Below are positions 28,930-34,548 of a DNA stretch of 35,088 nt, piece after piece; positions within the stretch are counted from its first letter, which is position 1; every line of letters starts with the position of its first letter. A model generated the notes under the pieces. The model ran no database searches, was not told the DNA's origin, and saw nothing but the letters and a program-made list of their open reading frames with translations. The stretch comes from Clostridia bacterium (lineage in GTDB: Bacteria; Bacillota; Clostridia; Lachnospirales; Lachnospiraceae). A program made the position numbers and the translations under genes. Location: assembly GCA_021201905.1 (NCBI GenBank), contig JAJQEA010000309.1:6439-41526 (forward strand). Reading direction: 5' to 3'.

Positions 28930-29175
28930 CTATTCTGTCAGGATCTGTACTGTAAATTTCTCACAGGAAGGAGAAAGCGAAAAATGTACATACAGATACA
29001 TAAAAATACTATTTTTGACACCTGAAGGATACGGAATGGAAAAATGTAAAATAATCGCGAAAAATCTTGTGTTTATATACAAAATTAGCTATCATAACTT
29101 ATGAGATAATAACGAAAAATCAAGCTCTGCTTGACAATAAAATGTACATAATTATACTTAAAGGAGAAAAGAGAA
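28930..29175. other. AT-rich intergenic stretch before the RpiR gene
   Basis: No coding sequence is convincing here. It marks the switch from moderate-GC sequence to the more AT-rich block downstream and ends with the RpiR promoter (29131-29158). Confidence 0.5.
29131..29158 (+). promoter_or_regulatory. RpiR gene promoter
   Basis: A perfect TTGACA (29131-29136), 16 nt, TATACT (29153-29158); then AAGGAG at 29160-29165 before ATG 29176. Confidence 0.7.
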
Positions 29176-30036
29176 ATGAGAAATATCGTTGAAGAAATCG
29201 AAGCAAATTACAATAAAATGACAAAAAGCCAACGGAAAATAGGGGATTTTATTATTGAAAATTACAGTATTGTACCGTTTGAAACCATAAGCAGCATTGC
29301 TGCCAGAGTTGGACAGAGCACCACATCATTGATTCGATTTTCACGTATGCTTGGATACAGGGATTATAGTGATTTAAAATACCATATTCAGGAGTCCATT
29401 AAAGGGAAAATAAGCCTTCCCGCCCGATTGAAAAATACAGCTTCAGACAGCGCTGATACCGCTGACGCAAGTAGGGATTTCTCGGTTTGCAGAGATAATG
29501 CTGTGAACAACATTGACAAGACAATTAAATATATGAATAAAGCTGATTTAGATGAAGCAATTGAATTGATATGCAAAACCAAGAGAACGTATGTATTGGG
29601 ATTACGCTCCTGCTTTTCACCGGCATACTTGTTTTCAATGGTTTTATCACAAATAAAAACAGGTACACGGTTGATTCACGGAATCGGGAACGTATTCCCG
29701 GAGGAGATTATAGATGTAAACAAGGACGATTTGCTGGTGGTCTTTACCTTTCCCAGGTTTTATAAGGAAACACTGAACTTAGCCAGTTACATGCACCGCT
29801 ATGGCGCAAAAGTAATTTTAATCACGTCGAATCAGCATGAACATATTAAACAATACGGCGATATTATTTTGCCGGTATATGTAAATGGAATTTCTTTTAA
29901 GGATTCATTTGTGGCAGTCATATTTTTGATTGAATATATAATTTCAGAGGTTGTACGACGCAATAAAAAGGAGAGTCTGAAAACTATTTCTAAATTGGAA
30001 GAGCTTCTTAGTCAAAGCTATTTTATGGGTTTTTAA
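29176..30036 (+). CDS. RpiR/MurR-family regulator with SIS domain
   Basis: A 286-residue regulator. The N-terminal helix-turn-helix (residues 1-77) carries 'NYNKMTKSQRKIGDFIIENYSIVPFETISSIAARVGQSTTSLIRFSRMLGYRDYSDLK'. The C-terminal sugar-isomerase-like (SIS) domain, about 120-250, includes 'KRTYVLGLRSCFSPAYLFSMVLSQI', 'DLLVVFTFPRFYKETLNLASYMHRYGAKVILITS' and 'GDIILPV'. SIS domains usually sense phosphosugars or related phosphoesters. The effector is therefore probably an intermediate of the adjacent pathway, such as the phosphorylated acid made by the kinase-like enzyme. It is separated by 57 nt from the transporter gene and may be cotranscribed with it. Confidence 0.9.
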   Translation: MRNIVEEIEANYNKMTKSQRKIGDFIIENYSIVPFETISSIAARVGQSTTSLIRFSRMLGYRDYSDLKYHIQESIKGKISLPARLKNTASDSADTADASRDFSVCRDNAVNNIDKTIKYMNKADLDEAIELICKTKRTYVLGLRSCFSPAYLFSMVLSQIKTGTRLIHGIGNVFPEEIIDVNKDDLLVVFTFPRFYKETLNLASYMHRYGAKVILITSNQHEHIKQYGDIILPVYVNGISFKDSFVAVIFLIEYIISEVVRRNKKESLKTISKLEELLSQSYFMGF

Positions 30037-30093: not shown

Positions 30094-31491
30094 ATGACTG
30101 AAATAAACAACATAAAGAAAAAACCAGGTTTTATGTTTTCTCTGGCCCTTATGATTGCTCTCTGTACGGTTGTTATTACACCGTATGTATTATGGAGAAC
30201 AAACATGGCAGCTACCTTTTTTCTGTCATACCTGTTTGTAATTCCGGCTTGTATGTCATTAGGCTATTCGTATCAGGAATTAGAGAAGGCTGTGTTTGAA
30301 AATGCATCTAAGGTAATATCCTCTGTTTTCATTTTGCTTGCGGTAGGTGGAATGGTTGGAACCTGGATTGCGGCCGGGACTGTATCTAGTATTGTATACA
30401 TTGGCCTGCAGCTTATTACGCCAAAACTGTTTTTGCTTATTACCTTTATTATCGGTTCTCTCTATGCGATTGCATGCGGAACTTCCTGGGGAACTTTAGG
30501 TACAATTGGTATCGCGATGTCTGCGGTGGGAACCGGTCTTGGCGTACCGCCCGCAATGACAGCAGGCGCAATTGTCAGTGCAGCTTTTTTGGGTGATAGT
30601 TTTTCACCAATGAGCGACAGTCCAAATCTGGAGTCTGCGATTGCCGGGGTTAATGTCATGGACCATGTCAGACATATGGCAAAAATTCAGATTCCTGTCT
30701 TTGTAATTGGCGCTGCCTTTTACGCCGCAGTTGGTTTTGGCCAGAGCGGTTCAGGTCAGATTCACAATGAAACAACGGATATGATTATATCAACGCTTTC
30801 AGGAAATTATCACATTGGCTTTATAGCATTTCTTCCTGCACTGGCGGTATTGATTCTGCTTCTTTTAAAGAAGTCAGCAGTAATTTCTATCCTGATTAGC
30901 TCCATCACCGGAGTTATCGTGGCCTGTATCTATCAGGGCGCCGGGCTGAAAACCGCACTTGAGCGCTTCTGGTCAGGCGTAAAGAGCAATACAGGGGTTG
31001 GACTGGTTGATACTCTCCTCTCCAGGGGCGGTGTCACAAGCTTATTCTCCAGTGCAGCATTATATTTAATTACCTTTGGATTGATTGGTATCCTCACAAA
31101 AGCCGGAATCCTGGATGCGGTCATTGAACCGTTGGTTAATAAAGTAAAATCCGGATTTCAACTTCTTATTACTACCATATTTACAGGATTTATCGGTGAC
31201 GCCGTGGGTTGCTCTGGTTCCTTTGCCTATATATTTACAGGAAATCTGTTAAAGCCGGTTTATAAAAAGATGAATGTAAGCGATCTTGATTTAGCCAGAA
31301 ATATGGGCTGTTCCGTTACACCATTAGGACCGTTGATTCCGTGGAATGTCAATGCGGTAATTGCACTGGATCTTTTGGGTGTTTCATGCATACAGTATGC
31401 ACCATACTGTGTACAGGCATATCTGATGCCCTTAATGTTAATTGCATTTTTCGTGTTTCGTTCAAAAAAGACGGAGGAGAAGAGTTTATGA
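30094..31491 (+). CDS. NhaC-family Na+/H+ antiporter-like transporter
   Basis: A 465-residue protein with about 11-12 hydrophobic segments. Family signatures are 'IIGSLYAIACGTSWGTLGTIGIAMSAVG', 'AGAIVSAAFLGDSFSPMSDSPNLESAIAGVN' and 'MGCSVTPLGPLIPWN'. NhaC relatives include Na+/H+ antiporters and the MleN malate/lactate exchanger, so this member may carry a small hydroxy acid. That inference rests on the operon: the next gene, overlapping its stop by an ATGA, is a glycerate-kinase-like enzyme. The ribosome binding site is AAAGGGG at about 30080. An antiport role in pH homeostasis remains possible. Confidence 0.85.
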   Translation: MTEINNIKKKPGFMFSLALMIALCTVVITPYVLWRTNMAATFFLSYLFVIPACMSLGYSYQELEKAVFENASKVISSVFILLAVGGMVGTWIAAGTVSSIVYIGLQLITPKLFLLITFIIGSLYAIACGTSWGTLGTIGIAMSAVGTGLGVPPAMTAGAIVSAAFLGDSFSPMSDSPNLESAIAGVNVMDHVRHMAKIQIPVFVIGAAFYAAVGFGQSGSGQIHNETTDMIISTLSGNYHIGFIAFLPALAVLILLLLKKSAVISILISSITGVIVACIYQGAGLKTALERFWSGVKSNTGVGLVDTLLSRGGVTSLFSSAALYLITFGLIGILTKAGILDAVIEPLVNKVKSGFQLLITTIFTGFIGDAVGCSGSFAYIFTGNLLKPVYKKMNVSDLDLARNMGCSVTPLGPLIPWNVNAVIALDLLGVSCIQYAPYCVQAYLMPLMLIAFFVFRSKKTEEKSL

Positions 31492-32888
31492 AGAAAATAA
31501 AAAACAATGATGCGTTACTTTCACATGGCGATATTGAATCCCGGAAAAAAATAACAGAGCTTCTGGAGGGAATGTGGGATAAGGTGGATTCCTATAAGCT
31601 GATTCACAAGCTAATGCATGTGGAAGGAAATCTGCTTCATATAGGCTCAAAAACCTACGATATGGACCAGCTGGCACATATTTACATGTTCGGCGCCGGA
31701 AAGGCATGCAACGCAATGGCCATGGCGGTATGCGATATCCTGGGTGAAAAATTAACAGAGGGAATCATTTCCGTAAAGATTGTTGAACCAGGAGACCATT
31801 ACATAAATACAAAGGTATATAACGGCGGGCACCCTCTCCCCAATGAAGAAGGCATGAAGGCAGCCGAGGCTATTCTTAACATGATAGACAAAGGAACGGC
31901 TCAGGATCTTTTCATATCCGTAATCAGCGGAGGAAGCTCAGCGCTGCTTACCTGCCCTAAACCGGGAATCTCGTTGGAAGATGAAATCGCTGCGCAGGAT
32001 ATGCTTCTCAGATCCGGCGCCAAGATGGAAGAAATAAATGCAGTAAGACGGCATATTTCCCGGACAAATGGAGGCCGGCTGGCAGAGGCTGTTTTAGAAA
32101 AGGGCGCGGAGATTGTAAATATCATCGTGGGTGACGGTGTTGGGGTTCTTCCTACAACCGACTTTACAGTACCCTATGCATTTACGGGAACACCGGTGGC
32201 TCCGGACAGGACAACCCTGGAGGATGCCAAAGCTTGTATCGTGAACTATGAGTTAAAGGAAAAACTTCCAAAATCCATTGTGGATTTTATCTTTTCCGAT
32301 GATGACAGGAATGAAACACCCAAGTCTTTCTCGGAAAAGGCAACACATTTCTGCCTGAATAACGTGCCGGATTCCTGTGAGGCGGCAATCCGCACAGCAG
32401 AGGAAATGGGCATTCCCTCTATGGTATTCTCCACTTTTATCGAGGGAGAAAGCAGAGAGGCAGGCTATTTCTTTGGTTCACTGGCCCGGGAGATTCAGGC
32501 CAACCACAGGCCCATTGCTGCTCCATGCTTTGTTTTCTGTTCCGGAGAGACGACAACTAAGGTGGCGGATGGATGTCATGGCAAGGGCGGTCCCTCACAT
32601 GAGCTGGCCATGGGATTTGCCATGACGGCAAAGGCCACAGACGGAGCTGTGATGGCATCGGTGGATACAGAGGGAACCGACGGGACGACCTGTTATGCAG
32701 GCGCTGTCACGGACTCTAAAACATTCTCTGAGCTGGAAACAGCCGGAATTAATATTTTCGAAGCTCTGAAAGAGCATGACTGCGGCACTGTGTTGGAAAA
32801 GCTGAATAATTCGATTTTAACGGGCAATACCGGAACAAATCTTTGTGATTTTAATGTGATGTATGTACCAAAAAAGGGAGAGAACTAA
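31488..32888 (+). CDS. Type-2 glycerate-kinase-like enzyme (MOFRL family), divergent
   Basis: A 466-residue protein of the glycerate 2-kinase (GckA/TtuD, DUF4147-MOFRL) family. It keeps the family's framework: MFGAGKACNAMA, VISGGSSALLTCP, INAVRRHISRTNGGRLAEAV, SGETTTKVADG and DTEGTDGTTCYAGAVTDS. Two motifs depart from the norm. The usual 'SDVxGDDxxxIxSGPTxPD' reads VGDGVGVLPTTDFTVPYAFTGTPVAPD, and the 'GGRNQE' of the MOFRL domain reads GGPSHE. ATG 31488 overlaps the transporter stop (ATGA) and has GGAGGA upstream; a longer frame from 31341 overlaps the transporter and is rejected. Normal members phosphorylate glycerate at position 2; the actual substrate here is uncertain. Confidence 0.85.
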   Translation: MKKIKNNDALLSHGDIESRKKITELLEGMWDKVDSYKLIHKLMHVEGNLLHIGSKTYDMDQLAHIYMFGAGKACNAMAMAVCDILGEKLTEGIISVKIVEPGDHYINTKVYNGGHPLPNEEGMKAAEAILNMIDKGTAQDLFISVISGGSSALLTCPKPGISLEDEIAAQDMLLRSGAKMEEINAVRRHISRTNGGRLAEAVLEKGAEIVNIIVGDGVGVLPTTDFTVPYAFTGTPVAPDRTTLEDAKACIVNYELKEKLPKSIVDFIFSDDDRNETPKSFSEKATHFCLNNVPDSCEAAIRTAEEMGIPSMVFSTFIEGESREAGYFFGSLAREIQANHRPIAAPCFVFCSGETTTKVADGCHGKGGPSHELAMGFAMTAKATDGAVMASVDTEGTDGTTCYAGAVTDSKTFSELETAGINIFEALKEHDCGTVLEKLNNSILTGNTGTNLCDFNVMYVPKKGEN

Positions 32889-32890
32889 CT

Positions 32891-34285
32891 ATGGACAGAA
32901 AAAATATAATTAAGACAGTATCGGCAAGGCAGGTACTGGATTCCAAGGGGAGACCCGTGCTAGAAGCGGAAATTATCACTGAAACTGGGATTGTAGGAAG
33001 ATCCGGTGCATCAACAGGAACATCAGTAGGAGCAAATGAATCTTATGTGCTGAGAGATGGGGACAAGAATCTCTTCAACGGACTTTCCGTATTTAATGCA
33101 ATCGAAAACGTCAAAACAAAAATTGCGCCGGTCCTTCAGGGAATGGATGTTTTAGACCAGCGGGCAATCGATCAGGCGTTGATTGATTTAGACGGTACCA
33201 GATACAAAACCAACCTGGGCGGCAATACAATCTATGCCGTATCCTGTGCGGCAGCAAGAGCCGCCTGCCAGGTATCGGGAAAAGAATTTTGGGAATATTT
33301 TACGGACAAGAGGCCGGAAACGGTTTTCGCACCCGCCTACAATATGATAAATGGCGGTACCTACGGGGATAAGACACTGGATTTTCAGGAATTTCTGGTA
33401 ATTCCAAAGAACGTAAGCACATTTTACGAGGGGTCAAGAATCGGCGTTGAAGTGTTCTATAAGATGGCCGAGGTAATTAAAAAGCGTACGGGAAAGCCTG
33501 CAGTAATGGGCAATTACAGTGGTTACGGCGCTCCTTCCGATGATCCCTTTGAAATTTTCGATATGCTAAATGAAGCAGTAGAGTCCCTGGGTTATAAGGA
33601 CAAGGTGATTTTCTCCATAGACTGCGCATGCAGCGAATTATATGACAAGGAAAAAGATGCTTACAGATTTAAGGGTGATTATATCAGCAGAGAGCAGATG
33701 ATAGCGCTTCTTGCAAAGCTGGCAGACACATATCCAATCGGCTTCATCGAAGATGCCCTTCAGGAAGAAGATTTTGAGGGCTTCGTTAAAGCAAGTCAGG
33801 AAATCAAAGCGGTTTTAATTGGAGATGATTTTATTTGCTCCAGTGCTGACAGAGCAGAAAAAGCAATATCTATGAAGGCCATTCGCGGTATGATTTTGAA
33901 GCCTAACCAGGCGGGAACCTTGAGTGAGGCCATCGATATGGTAAGACTGATGCAAAGCAAAGGAATGCTTGTAGTGGCCTCAGGACGCGCAGGCGGAGTG
34001 TACGAGGACCCGAATGCAGAACTGGCTATCGCTTTGGGAGTTCCCCTTATGAAAACAGGTGCTCCCAGAAGTGGTGAAAGGGTTGCCTTTACGAATACGG
34101 CACTTAGAATCGAAGAAAAACTTACTTCAAAACAGACTATGGCGGATCCATTGAGTATCCCAGGATTTGAAAGACTGAAAAAAAATGTAAGCAGAGGCCG
34201 GTGCATTCACACTTCGTTCATATTTCATTCAAAAACCTTTTACACAAACAACATTATTTCTTCATGTTTACCCTATATACTTTAA
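32891..34285 (+). CDS. Enolase paralogue with altered active site
   Basis: A 464-residue enolase-superfamily protein, two bases after the kinase-like gene, with a GGGAG site. It has GASTG..YVLRDGD and DFQEFLVIP. Metal ligands are retained: SIDCACSE (Asp), FIEDALQEED (Glu) and LIGDDF (Asp). The catalytic lysine in GMILKPNQAG and the later Lys in MKTGAP also remain. Differences from true enolase, by motif alignment: GG-x-HA reads GGTYG, GDEGG reads GNYSG (the catalytic Glu is lost), and SHRSGETED reads SGRAGGVYED. Ordinary 2-phosphoglycerate dehydration is therefore doubtful. The final 33 residues, after an A8 run, are unlike enolase. It is unlikely to be the cell's only enolase. Confidence 0.85.
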   Translation: MDRKNIIKTVSARQVLDSKGRPVLEAEIITETGIVGRSGASTGTSVGANESYVLRDGDKNLFNGLSVFNAIENVKTKIAPVLQGMDVLDQRAIDQALIDLDGTRYKTNLGGNTIYAVSCAAARAACQVSGKEFWEYFTDKRPETVFAPAYNMINGGTYGDKTLDFQEFLVIPKNVSTFYEGSRIGVEVFYKMAEVIKKRTGKPAVMGNYSGYGAPSDDPFEIFDMLNEAVESLGYKDKVIFSIDCACSELYDKEKDAYRFKGDYISREQMIALLAKLADTYPIGFIEDALQEEDFEGFVKASQEIKAVLIGDDFICSSADRAEKAISMKAIRGMILKPNQAGTLSEAIDMVRLMQSKGMLVVASGRAGGVYEDPNAELAIALGVPLMKTGAPRSGERVAFTNTALRIEEKLTSKQTMADPLSIPGFERLKKNVSRGRCIHTSFIFHSKTFYTNNIISSCLPYIL

Positions 34286-34402: not shown

Positions 34403-34433
34403 AGCGCATCATCCATAGGATGGTGCGTTTTTT
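34403..34433 (+). terminator. Terminator of the transporter/kinase/enolase operon
   Basis: CGCATCATCC (34405-34414) pairs with GGATGGTGCG (34418-34427), one G-U pair, followed by TTTTTT. The region 34286-34548 otherwise holds no gene. Confidence 0.75.
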
Positions 34434-34548
34434 CGTCTGCCTGCGCTCAGGGGCAGCGCTGAGATCCGCCCCTGATTTTTGAATTCTGTCCCTTTTTCTG
34501 CATTCTGCCCCTGTTGTCCCTTTATAGCCCGGTACATGAGCCGTTTCC

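Follow-up and report, generated by a model that had tools for sequence, protein, structure and literature searches.

The window analysed here, a stretch of 35,088 nucleotides from a Clostridia bacterium of the Lachnospiraceae (assembly GCA_021201905.1, contig JAJQEA010000309.1, positions 6,439 to 41,526), carries the genes rpiR, nhaC, a kinase gene and an enolase-like gene in this order on one strand. The last two are the subject of this report. They encode relatives of glycerate 2-kinase and of enolase and, as a pair that is found together across unrelated bacteria, they probably break down an acid other than glycerate. The features of the locus are listed below; residue numbers of yeast enolase, here and throughout, were assigned by motif.

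29131..29158, plus strand: promoter-like site ahead of rpiR, TTGACA-16-TATACT (consensus scan, 11 of 12 positions)
29176..30036, plus strand: RpiR-type regulator with SIS domain (Pfam HTH_6 and SIS)
30094..31491, plus strand: NhaC-family transporter (PF03553)
31488 (ATG) to 32888 (stop), plus strand: DUF4147/MOFRL glycerate-2-kinase-like enzyme of a variant subfamily, 466 amino acids (PF13660, PF05161)
32891 (ATG) to 34285 (stop), plus strand: enolase-like protein, a Tyr-type variant without Glu211, His159 and His373, 464 amino acids (PF03952, PF00113)
33362..33364, plus strand: codon of Tyr158, at the position of yeast His159 (alignment)
33515..33517, plus strand: codon of Tyr209, at the position of yeast Glu211 (alignment)
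33899..33901, plus strand: codon of Lys337, at the position of yeast Lys345, kept (alignment)
33983..33985, plus strand: codon of Gly365, at the position of yeast His373 (alignment)

The ATG of the kinase gene shares 4 nt with the stop of nhaC, and only 2 nt separate the kinase stop from the start of the enolase-like gene. An original prediction, made from the letters of the window, had described these two genes as adjacent and as coupled to an RpiR regulator and an NhaC-type transporter. The positions proved correct, and both accompanying genes, recognised by their domains, lie upstream on the same strand.

The enolase-like protein has the features that define the enolase subgroup of the enolase superfamily: the Enolase_N and Enolase_C domains, three acidic metal ligands and equivalents of Lys345 and Lys396. 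It also passes TIGR01060, the NCBIfam model for phosphopyruvate hydratase, with 362.7 bits against a cut-off of 300; this model fails to separate the variant subfamily from true enolase. As predicted, the metal ligands (D244, E287, D313) and both lysines (K337, K388) are intact, and equivalents of Glu168 and Arg374 are present, as is Ser45 at the position of yeast Ser39. The predicted losses are equally real. GDEGG is changed to GNYSG, GG-x-H to GG-T-Y and SHRSGE to SGRAGG. PMC4922564 gives the catalytic set of yeast enolase (7ENL) as E168, E211, K345 and K396. Three of these four residues are found in the window protein, and E211 is replaced by Tyr.

To place these changes we compared 91 enolase-like proteins with 20 canonical enolases. 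The former came from 87 of 88 loci, made up of the 80 top-ranking of 161 relatives, selected on their kinase, minus one (L051, on the contig of L013), plus five loci from the genome and order of the window and four from plasmids; several of the 88 share one genome or species. The canonical enolases, classified according to Pfam score and search position, came from 17 of 19 host genomes including that of the window. Two proteins (L003, L131) were excluded from both groups and a third (L130) was dropped. The residues kept in the window protein were kept almost throughout the relatives: E168, D246 and E295 in all 91, D320 in 89, K345, R374 and K396 in 90 each and the Ser39 equivalent in 88. Glu211 was missing in every relative (Ser in 73, Tyr in 13, another residue in five) and present in 20/20 canonical enolases. 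Similarly, His159 occurred in 1/91 relatives (78 have Tyr) against 20/20 canonical enolases, and His373 in none (82 have Gly) against 19/20. One member of the canonical set (L129) stands on a long branch and shows Asp and Ala at or near positions 168 and 373, respectively. The pattern of residues is thus a trait of the subfamily and more than chance. In a tree with all 91 variants they occupied one side of a branch (Shimodaira-Hasegawa-like approximate likelihood ratio test, SH-aLRT, 99), and in a more careful tree with 22 of the 91 the clade received 100/99 support. The closest solved chain, 2pa6, scored 295 bits, against 357-369 bits for variant relatives at 44-45% identity, and no subfamily member was recognised among the solved chains found in the structure-chain search.

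The host genomes were examined for a second, ordinary enolase. Nineteen were tested, that of the window and 18 others reached via 19 chosen loci, and 17 of them carry a canonical enolase (above 400 bits) besides the variant. The pair is therefore not simply the source of the glycolytic enolase. In the window's genome the canonical copy (417 bits) lies on contig C115, and for this reason the idea that the variant is the only enolase of this host was set aside. The assembly has 5.85 Mb in 431 contigs and is listed as 99.8% complete and 8.0% contaminated; given this contamination, some of the other enolases in it may come from elsewhere. A pseudogene was set aside as well, since the metal and lysine residues are retained in 89-91 of the 91 relatives.

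The kinase of the window has DUF4147 and MOFRL, the domains of class II glycerate 2-kinases. It reads TGNTGTN and GGPSHE where TM1585 (2b8n) has TGPTGTN and GGRNQE. R188, N194, T235, P369, E395 and C453 were found in all 88 partner kinases, whereas the comparison set, six further DUF4147 kinases of these hosts, uniformly has K, K, G, R, D and N at these positions. N447 is also present in 88/88, and four of the six others have Pro there. N447 and P369 mark the SGPT and GGRNQE sites at which the kinase had been said to depart from its family. Both departures hold throughout the subfamily, but the change from GGR to GGP is not unique to it. PH0495 (1x3l) and the kinases of two plasmid loci treated below (L146, L147) also have Pro, so that P369 by itself does not identify the subfamily; R188, N194, E395, N447 and C453 are missing from the kinases of L146 and L147. 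Identity of the partner kinase to seven other DUF4147 kinases compared was 26-33%. The NCBIfam cut-offs for glycerate 2-kinase were not reached (178.6 against 550 and 126.9 against 670), a weak test because these models are narrow. Judged by their signature, the partner kinases appear to form a variant subfamily of their own.

The two variants belong together. Among the kinase-anchored loci, the best 80 of 161 relatives, 79 contain the variant enolase. The 80 loci, with 30 named genera among them, fall into Bacillota (38), Pseudomonadota (32), Planctomycetota (3), Spirochaetota (2), Synergistota (2) and Actinomycetota (1), with two unassigned; the nearest named one is from an Enterocloster bolteae metagenome-assembled genome (MAG), with a kinase identity of 74%. 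Searches anchored on the enolase used strict thresholds (E of 1e-90 or 1e-105), at which distant variants may escape, and included the query's own genome each time. In the order of the window the variant enolase was found in 5 of 392 genomes (E up to 1e-90), with the kinase adjoining in all five, and a kinase-anchored search of the same 392 genomes returned the identical five. In Burkholderiaceae it occurred in 4 of 200 genomes, each time with the kinase upstream (one contig carries a partial kinase), and in the rhizobial order in 1 of 297, the query's own. Plasmids, represented by the best 40 of 1106 records and the best 40 of 420 records, gave nine records at 42-44% enolase identity, all nine with the kinase alongside, while the other 31 of the best 40 were at 37% or below. 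One plasmid enolase, from Rhizobium jaguaris, was matched in two pieces, is not annotated as a gene and may be broken. A further search with the kinase alone among 61 relatives yielded four places in three genomes.

The spacing of the genes is equally tight. Over 83 loci, with start codons approximate and the fused L013 included, the median gap was 1 nt, and it was 30 nt or less in 75. Both enzymes are encoded in a single frame in L013, L042 and L080 (by Pfam) and in L054 (903 amino acids). Kinase and enolase distances were correlated with r = 0.94 over 87 pairs, a value reached in 0 of 2000 permutations; such a match in divergence shows shared inheritance and is by itself no proof of function. 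Few genomes have the module, but where it occurs its two genes are closely linked, a fixed two-gene unit from either anchor. The original prediction had asked whether the variants co-occur across genomes and had named variant enolases standing mostly apart from the kinase as the observation that would speak against it; this was looked for from both anchors and not found.

Some loci showed rearrangements of the unit. In L091 the enolase gene lies upstream, with rpiR in between. Two tandem variant enolase genes follow one kinase in L011, L020, L076 and L087, and in two of these loci (L076, L087) the residue at position 211 is not the same in both copies. Petroclostridium sp. X23 (G392) has a decayed third pair (L130), besides the pairs L018 and L021 of its chromosome.

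What might such a pair do? Since it travels together through unrelated bacteria, it probably acts on an acid other than glycerate, and a coordinated kinase-enolase module of this kind is well supported. Our best explanation, which we consider on balance probable from family membership and conserved residues, is that the two enzymes form a dedicated module which degrades, in two steps, a 2-hydroxy acid other than D-glycerate. In the first step the kinase, as expected of its family, would phosphorylate the 2-hydroxyl of an acid that is imported or made upstream. In the second, the metal ligands and the Arg374 and Ser39 equivalents would hold the carboxylate and the 2-phosphate as in enolase. Lys337 would then remove the C2 proton, Lys388 and Mg would steady the intermediate, and a group would be expelled from C3 to give phosphoenolpyruvate (PEP) or a substituted PEP. 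The residues kept in the variant are presumably those that bind metals, carboxylate and phosphate and take the C2 proton. Those that differ from enolase, Glu211, His159 and His373 and in most relatives also Gln167, which the window keeps, presumably belong, as in enolase, to the C3 side of the pocket. It is therefore at C3 that the substrate most likely departs from 2-phosphoglycerate, by its size or by its leaving group.

The surroundings of the pair were examined in all 88 loci. Neighbour labels came from our own open reading frame picking and clustering, many were named by eye, and short contigs depress the counts. The most frequent companion was a gene of the ornithine-cyclodeaminase family (OCD-like, resembling imine reductases), found within 9 kb in 59 loci (for example L097, 14729-15850, and L077, 12714-13832). 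Two members that were tested exceed the cut-off of 362 bits of the NCBIfam model 'tyramine oxidase subunit B', with 530 and 440 bits. This name is also used in three plasmid records, and no support for it was found in 15 of 252 matching open-licence PubMed Central papers; other close relatives include SbnB and alanine dehydrogenase. In the 200 Burkholderiaceae genomes the family occurs in four, precisely those with the variant enolase. The OCD-like gene accompanies 58 of 73 enolases with Ser at position 211 and none of the 13 with Tyr. Because the gene tracks Ser211 and was unseen with Tyr, there are at least two subtypes, a Ser-type and a Tyr-type, and the window is of the Tyr-type. Gln167 separates the two in the same way, being present in 13/13 Tyr-type proteins including that of the window and in at most 1/73 of the Ser-type.

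Other neighbours point to hydroxy acids or to nitrogen compounds. LarA-type racemases were found in 10 loci and TRAP permeases in 16, a hydroxy-acid setting that agrees with the two-step module. Glutamate-dehydrogenase-type genes were seen in 20 loci, proline-racemase-family genes in 21, caprolactamase-like HyuA in 14 and HyuB in 15, and amino-acid ATP-binding cassette (ABC) carriers in some. Pyruvate kinase, sought with pyruvate kinase sequences, occurred in L024 and L077, both Ser-type, and supports PEP as the product. In L024 the enolase ends at 2805 and the pyruvate kinase gene, cut by the contig end, begins at 2822, whereas in L077 it comes after the third gene; the genome of L077 has three pyruvate kinases, and another one of them adjoins an ordinary DUF4147 kinase. 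Unlabelled neighbours, inspected by eye in 27 of the 88 loci, included no recognised sulfite or sulfonate gene. A sulfolactate route as such was set aside, and sulfite is retained as one possible leaving group. A pyridoxal phosphate enzyme in L097 was considered as CuyA/XcbE and rejected, because it resembles both but scores well under their cut-offs.

The nearest relatives of the window, L017 to L019, have an rpiR gene alongside, and L017 also has nhaC at the corresponding position, its product being 72% identical to the window transporter. L018 has a GntP permease and a flavin mononucleotide (FMN)-type dehydrogenase nearby, again a setting fit for a hydroxy acid, and a YfcC-like carrier was noted by eye in L018 and L019. 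The window RpiR itself is 36% identical to the RpiR adjoining the pair in L011. Its NhaC-family product does not reach TIGR00931, the model for NhaC Na+/H+ antiporters (334.1 bits, cut-off 370), although PF03553 is present; it is a probable importer or exchanger of the module's substrate. A terminator-like hairpin lies 5' of the promoter-like site ahead of rpiR. The scan totals are not evidence in themselves: 10 promoter-like sites were found, not above chance (11.9 in shuffles), and eight terminator-like ones (5.7 in shuffles). Another hairpin followed by a T run, at about 34404-34434, was spotted by eye and is missing from the scan output. The enolase-like frame continues for some 34 amino acids beyond the end of its closest relative, L017, just past an A run (34180-34285); this may be a genuine extension or an effect of assembly or frame. 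The window reaches the end of its contig (C169).

Several points weigh against the non-glycerate module. L062 has the kinase without the enolase, the sole exception among the 80 kinase-anchored loci. Two host genomes, G401 (reached via L056, Treponema) and G404 (via L072, Synergistaceae), yielded only the variant enolase; G404 is a MAG, and both are possibly incomplete. Pyruvate kinase adjoins the pair in just 2/88 loci, neither of them Tyr-type like the window, and the changed residues are assigned to the C3 side by analogy with enolase. Finally, neighbours vary widely among lineages and differ between Tyr-type and Ser-type loci, which makes a single substrate common to all lineages doubtful. 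As to the exceptional locus itself, the kinase of L062 (7315-8724) has in its vicinity an enzyme of the mandelate-racemase/muconate type and an amidohydrolase that looks by eye like a D-aminoacylase.

If the module is accepted, the question is what leaves from C3. In enolase we take Glu211 to act as the acid that assists departure of the hydroxyl from C3. Its loss may therefore mean a leaving group other than hydroxide rather than a longer hydroxy acid. One tentative form of the module, overlapping with our best explanation, is that the substrate is a 3-substituted lactate (for example 3-amino, N-linked or sulfo), that the enolase-like enzyme expels the substituent without Glu211 to give PEP and that pyruvate kinase uses this PEP; in Ser-type lineages the imine-reductase-like third gene might then process the amino compound. 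Absence of the presumed general acid from all 91 relatives, the pyruvate kinases of L024 and L077, the many OCD-like, glutamate-dehydrogenase-type, proline-racemase and Hyu neighbours and the restriction of the OCD-like family to the variant-carrying Burkholderiaceae all fit this view. Against it stand the scarcity of pyruvate kinase, the lack of a recognised sulfite or sulfonate gene among the neighbours inspected and the absence of the OCD-like gene from every Tyr-type locus; nor was this gene found in the window's genome, in a search without a positive control. In one Burkholderiaceae genome (G400) a second, higher-scoring OCD-like copy lies remote from the pair, so the family has other roles.

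The other form, that of the original prediction and possible to a like degree, is that a longer or branched hydroxy acid is phosphorylated and then dehydrated in the ordinary way to a substituted PEP. It draws on the same residues and the same pairing. Acid-sugar-dehydratase-like enzymes of the MR/MLE group occur in the Tyr-type loci L018, L020, L027, L029 and L076, and the retained Glu168 could assist. However, MR/MLE genes are also present in L055, which is not Tyr-type, and in the enolase-free L062, loss of Glu211 in every relative would be unexpected if hydroxide leaves, and the two Ser-type loci in which pyruvate kinase adjoins the pair point to unsubstituted PEP as their product. We rate loss of water from a longer hydroxy acid and expulsion, to give PEP, of a group that can leave unaided as about equally likely. 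Expulsion of such a group is favoured in Ser-type loci by the pyruvate kinases and the nitrogen-handling neighbours, and the lineage of the window gives no such hint.

An ordinary route from D-glycerate, or one from L-glycerate, to PEP, with the changes explained by drift or a stereochemical switch, is unlikely. A class II kinase of the DUF4147 family, that of T. tenax, does yield 2-phosphoglycerate from D-glycerate (PMC2063504), pyruvate kinase adjoins the pair in L024 and L077, and a pair of glycerate kinase and pykF is described in P. aeruginosa (PMC12694930). The canonical enolase in 17/19 hosts and the universal loss of Glu211 argue against such a route, and the LarA-type racemases of 10 loci might render a special L-glycerate route unneeded there. 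It is similarly improbable that the enolase-like protein transfers protons without elimination, as a racemase or epimerase, or is a non-catalytic partner of the kinase: the missing presumed general acid, the retained lysines and the tandem copies would suit the idea, but the near-complete conservation of metal and lysine residues speaks against a dead protein and racemases of the LarA type are already at hand in 10/88 loci.

The proposed non-glycerate module of the window may not be the only one of its sort. Plasmid pairs of Paraburkholderia caribensis (L146, 4623-7353) and Halorubrum (L147, 2696-5347) resemble it in that an enolase paralogue adjoins a DUF4147 kinase. They differ in that their enolases keep Glu211 and have Leu at 159 and Glu at 373, and in a reversed gene order; the two enolases group together, apart from the variants (98/97). 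We rejected L146 and L147 as controls for an ordinary glycerate pair because they represent another altered enolase lineage, and no natural canonical kinase-enolase pair served in their place. Three Haladaptatus plasmid records have the same arrangement, judged by coordinates alone. On these few examples altered enolases adjoining DUF4147 kinases look recurrent. There may even be an unrecognised class of catabolic modules, in which the kinase turns a 2-hydroxy acid into its 2-phosphate and an altered enolase releases from C3 a group other than hydroxyl, such as an amine or sulfite, to give PEP. Such modules, sometimes on plasmids, would then have evolved several times among enolases: in the 91-member clade, in the lineage of L146 and L147 and perhaps in that of L015. 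This wider proposal we regard as rather doubtful.

L015 itself is a second, more divergent kinase/enolase-like set in the genome bin of the window (contig C373, 1376-11959). The DUF4147 kinase is followed by a branched-chain ABC carrier and then by the enolase-like protein, at a distance of about 4.7 kb from the kinase; LarA-N/DUF362 and fucose-isomerase-like genes complete the set. The enolase-like protein has other active-site changes, and its place in the tree is unsure on account of a long branch. L131 (6306-7577), from Mediterraneibacter massiliensis, is an isolated enolase paralogue without Lys345 and two of the metal ligands; a transposase-like neighbour was noted by eye.

Enolase usually passes for a conserved enzyme with one function. 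The variants pass the phosphopyruvate hydratase model, and annotated relatives are named 'enolase' or 'enolase C-terminal domain-like protein'. Here a widespread and partly plasmid-borne subfamily lacks the catalytic Glu211 and is tied, and sometimes fused, to a kinase of its own. If our interpretation is true, a catabolic route is hidden behind the name enolase in gut, soil or plant-associated bacteria, and metabolic models should be cautious in counting such genes as glycolytic enolase.

A search of open-licence PubMed Central titles and abstract openings, with subscription literature outside its range, found no description of the kinase and variant-enolase pair. One related arrangement is the glxK-pykF segment of the gcl cluster of Pseudomonas, where a glycerate kinase of the TM1585 type adjoins pyruvate kinase (PMC12694930); the word enolase is absent from the main text of that paper, so that no dedicated enolase is described there. 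With class II glycerate 2-kinases (TM1585, 2b8n; PH0495, 1x3l) the partner kinases share the DUF4147 and MOFRL domains and the GTDG region, and phosphorylation of a hydroxy acid at the 2-position is likely. They differ by R188, N194, T235, E395, N447 and C453 and lie far under the NCBIfam cut-offs for glycerate 2-kinase. With enolase (TIGR01060; 2pa6) the variants share both domains, the three metal ligands and the equivalents of Glu168, Lys345, Lys396, Arg374 and Ser39. Unlike enolase, they have lost Glu211 (91/91), His159 (90/91) and His373 (91/91), they are encoded with a kinase, and in 17 of the 19 hosts they coexist with a canonical enolase.

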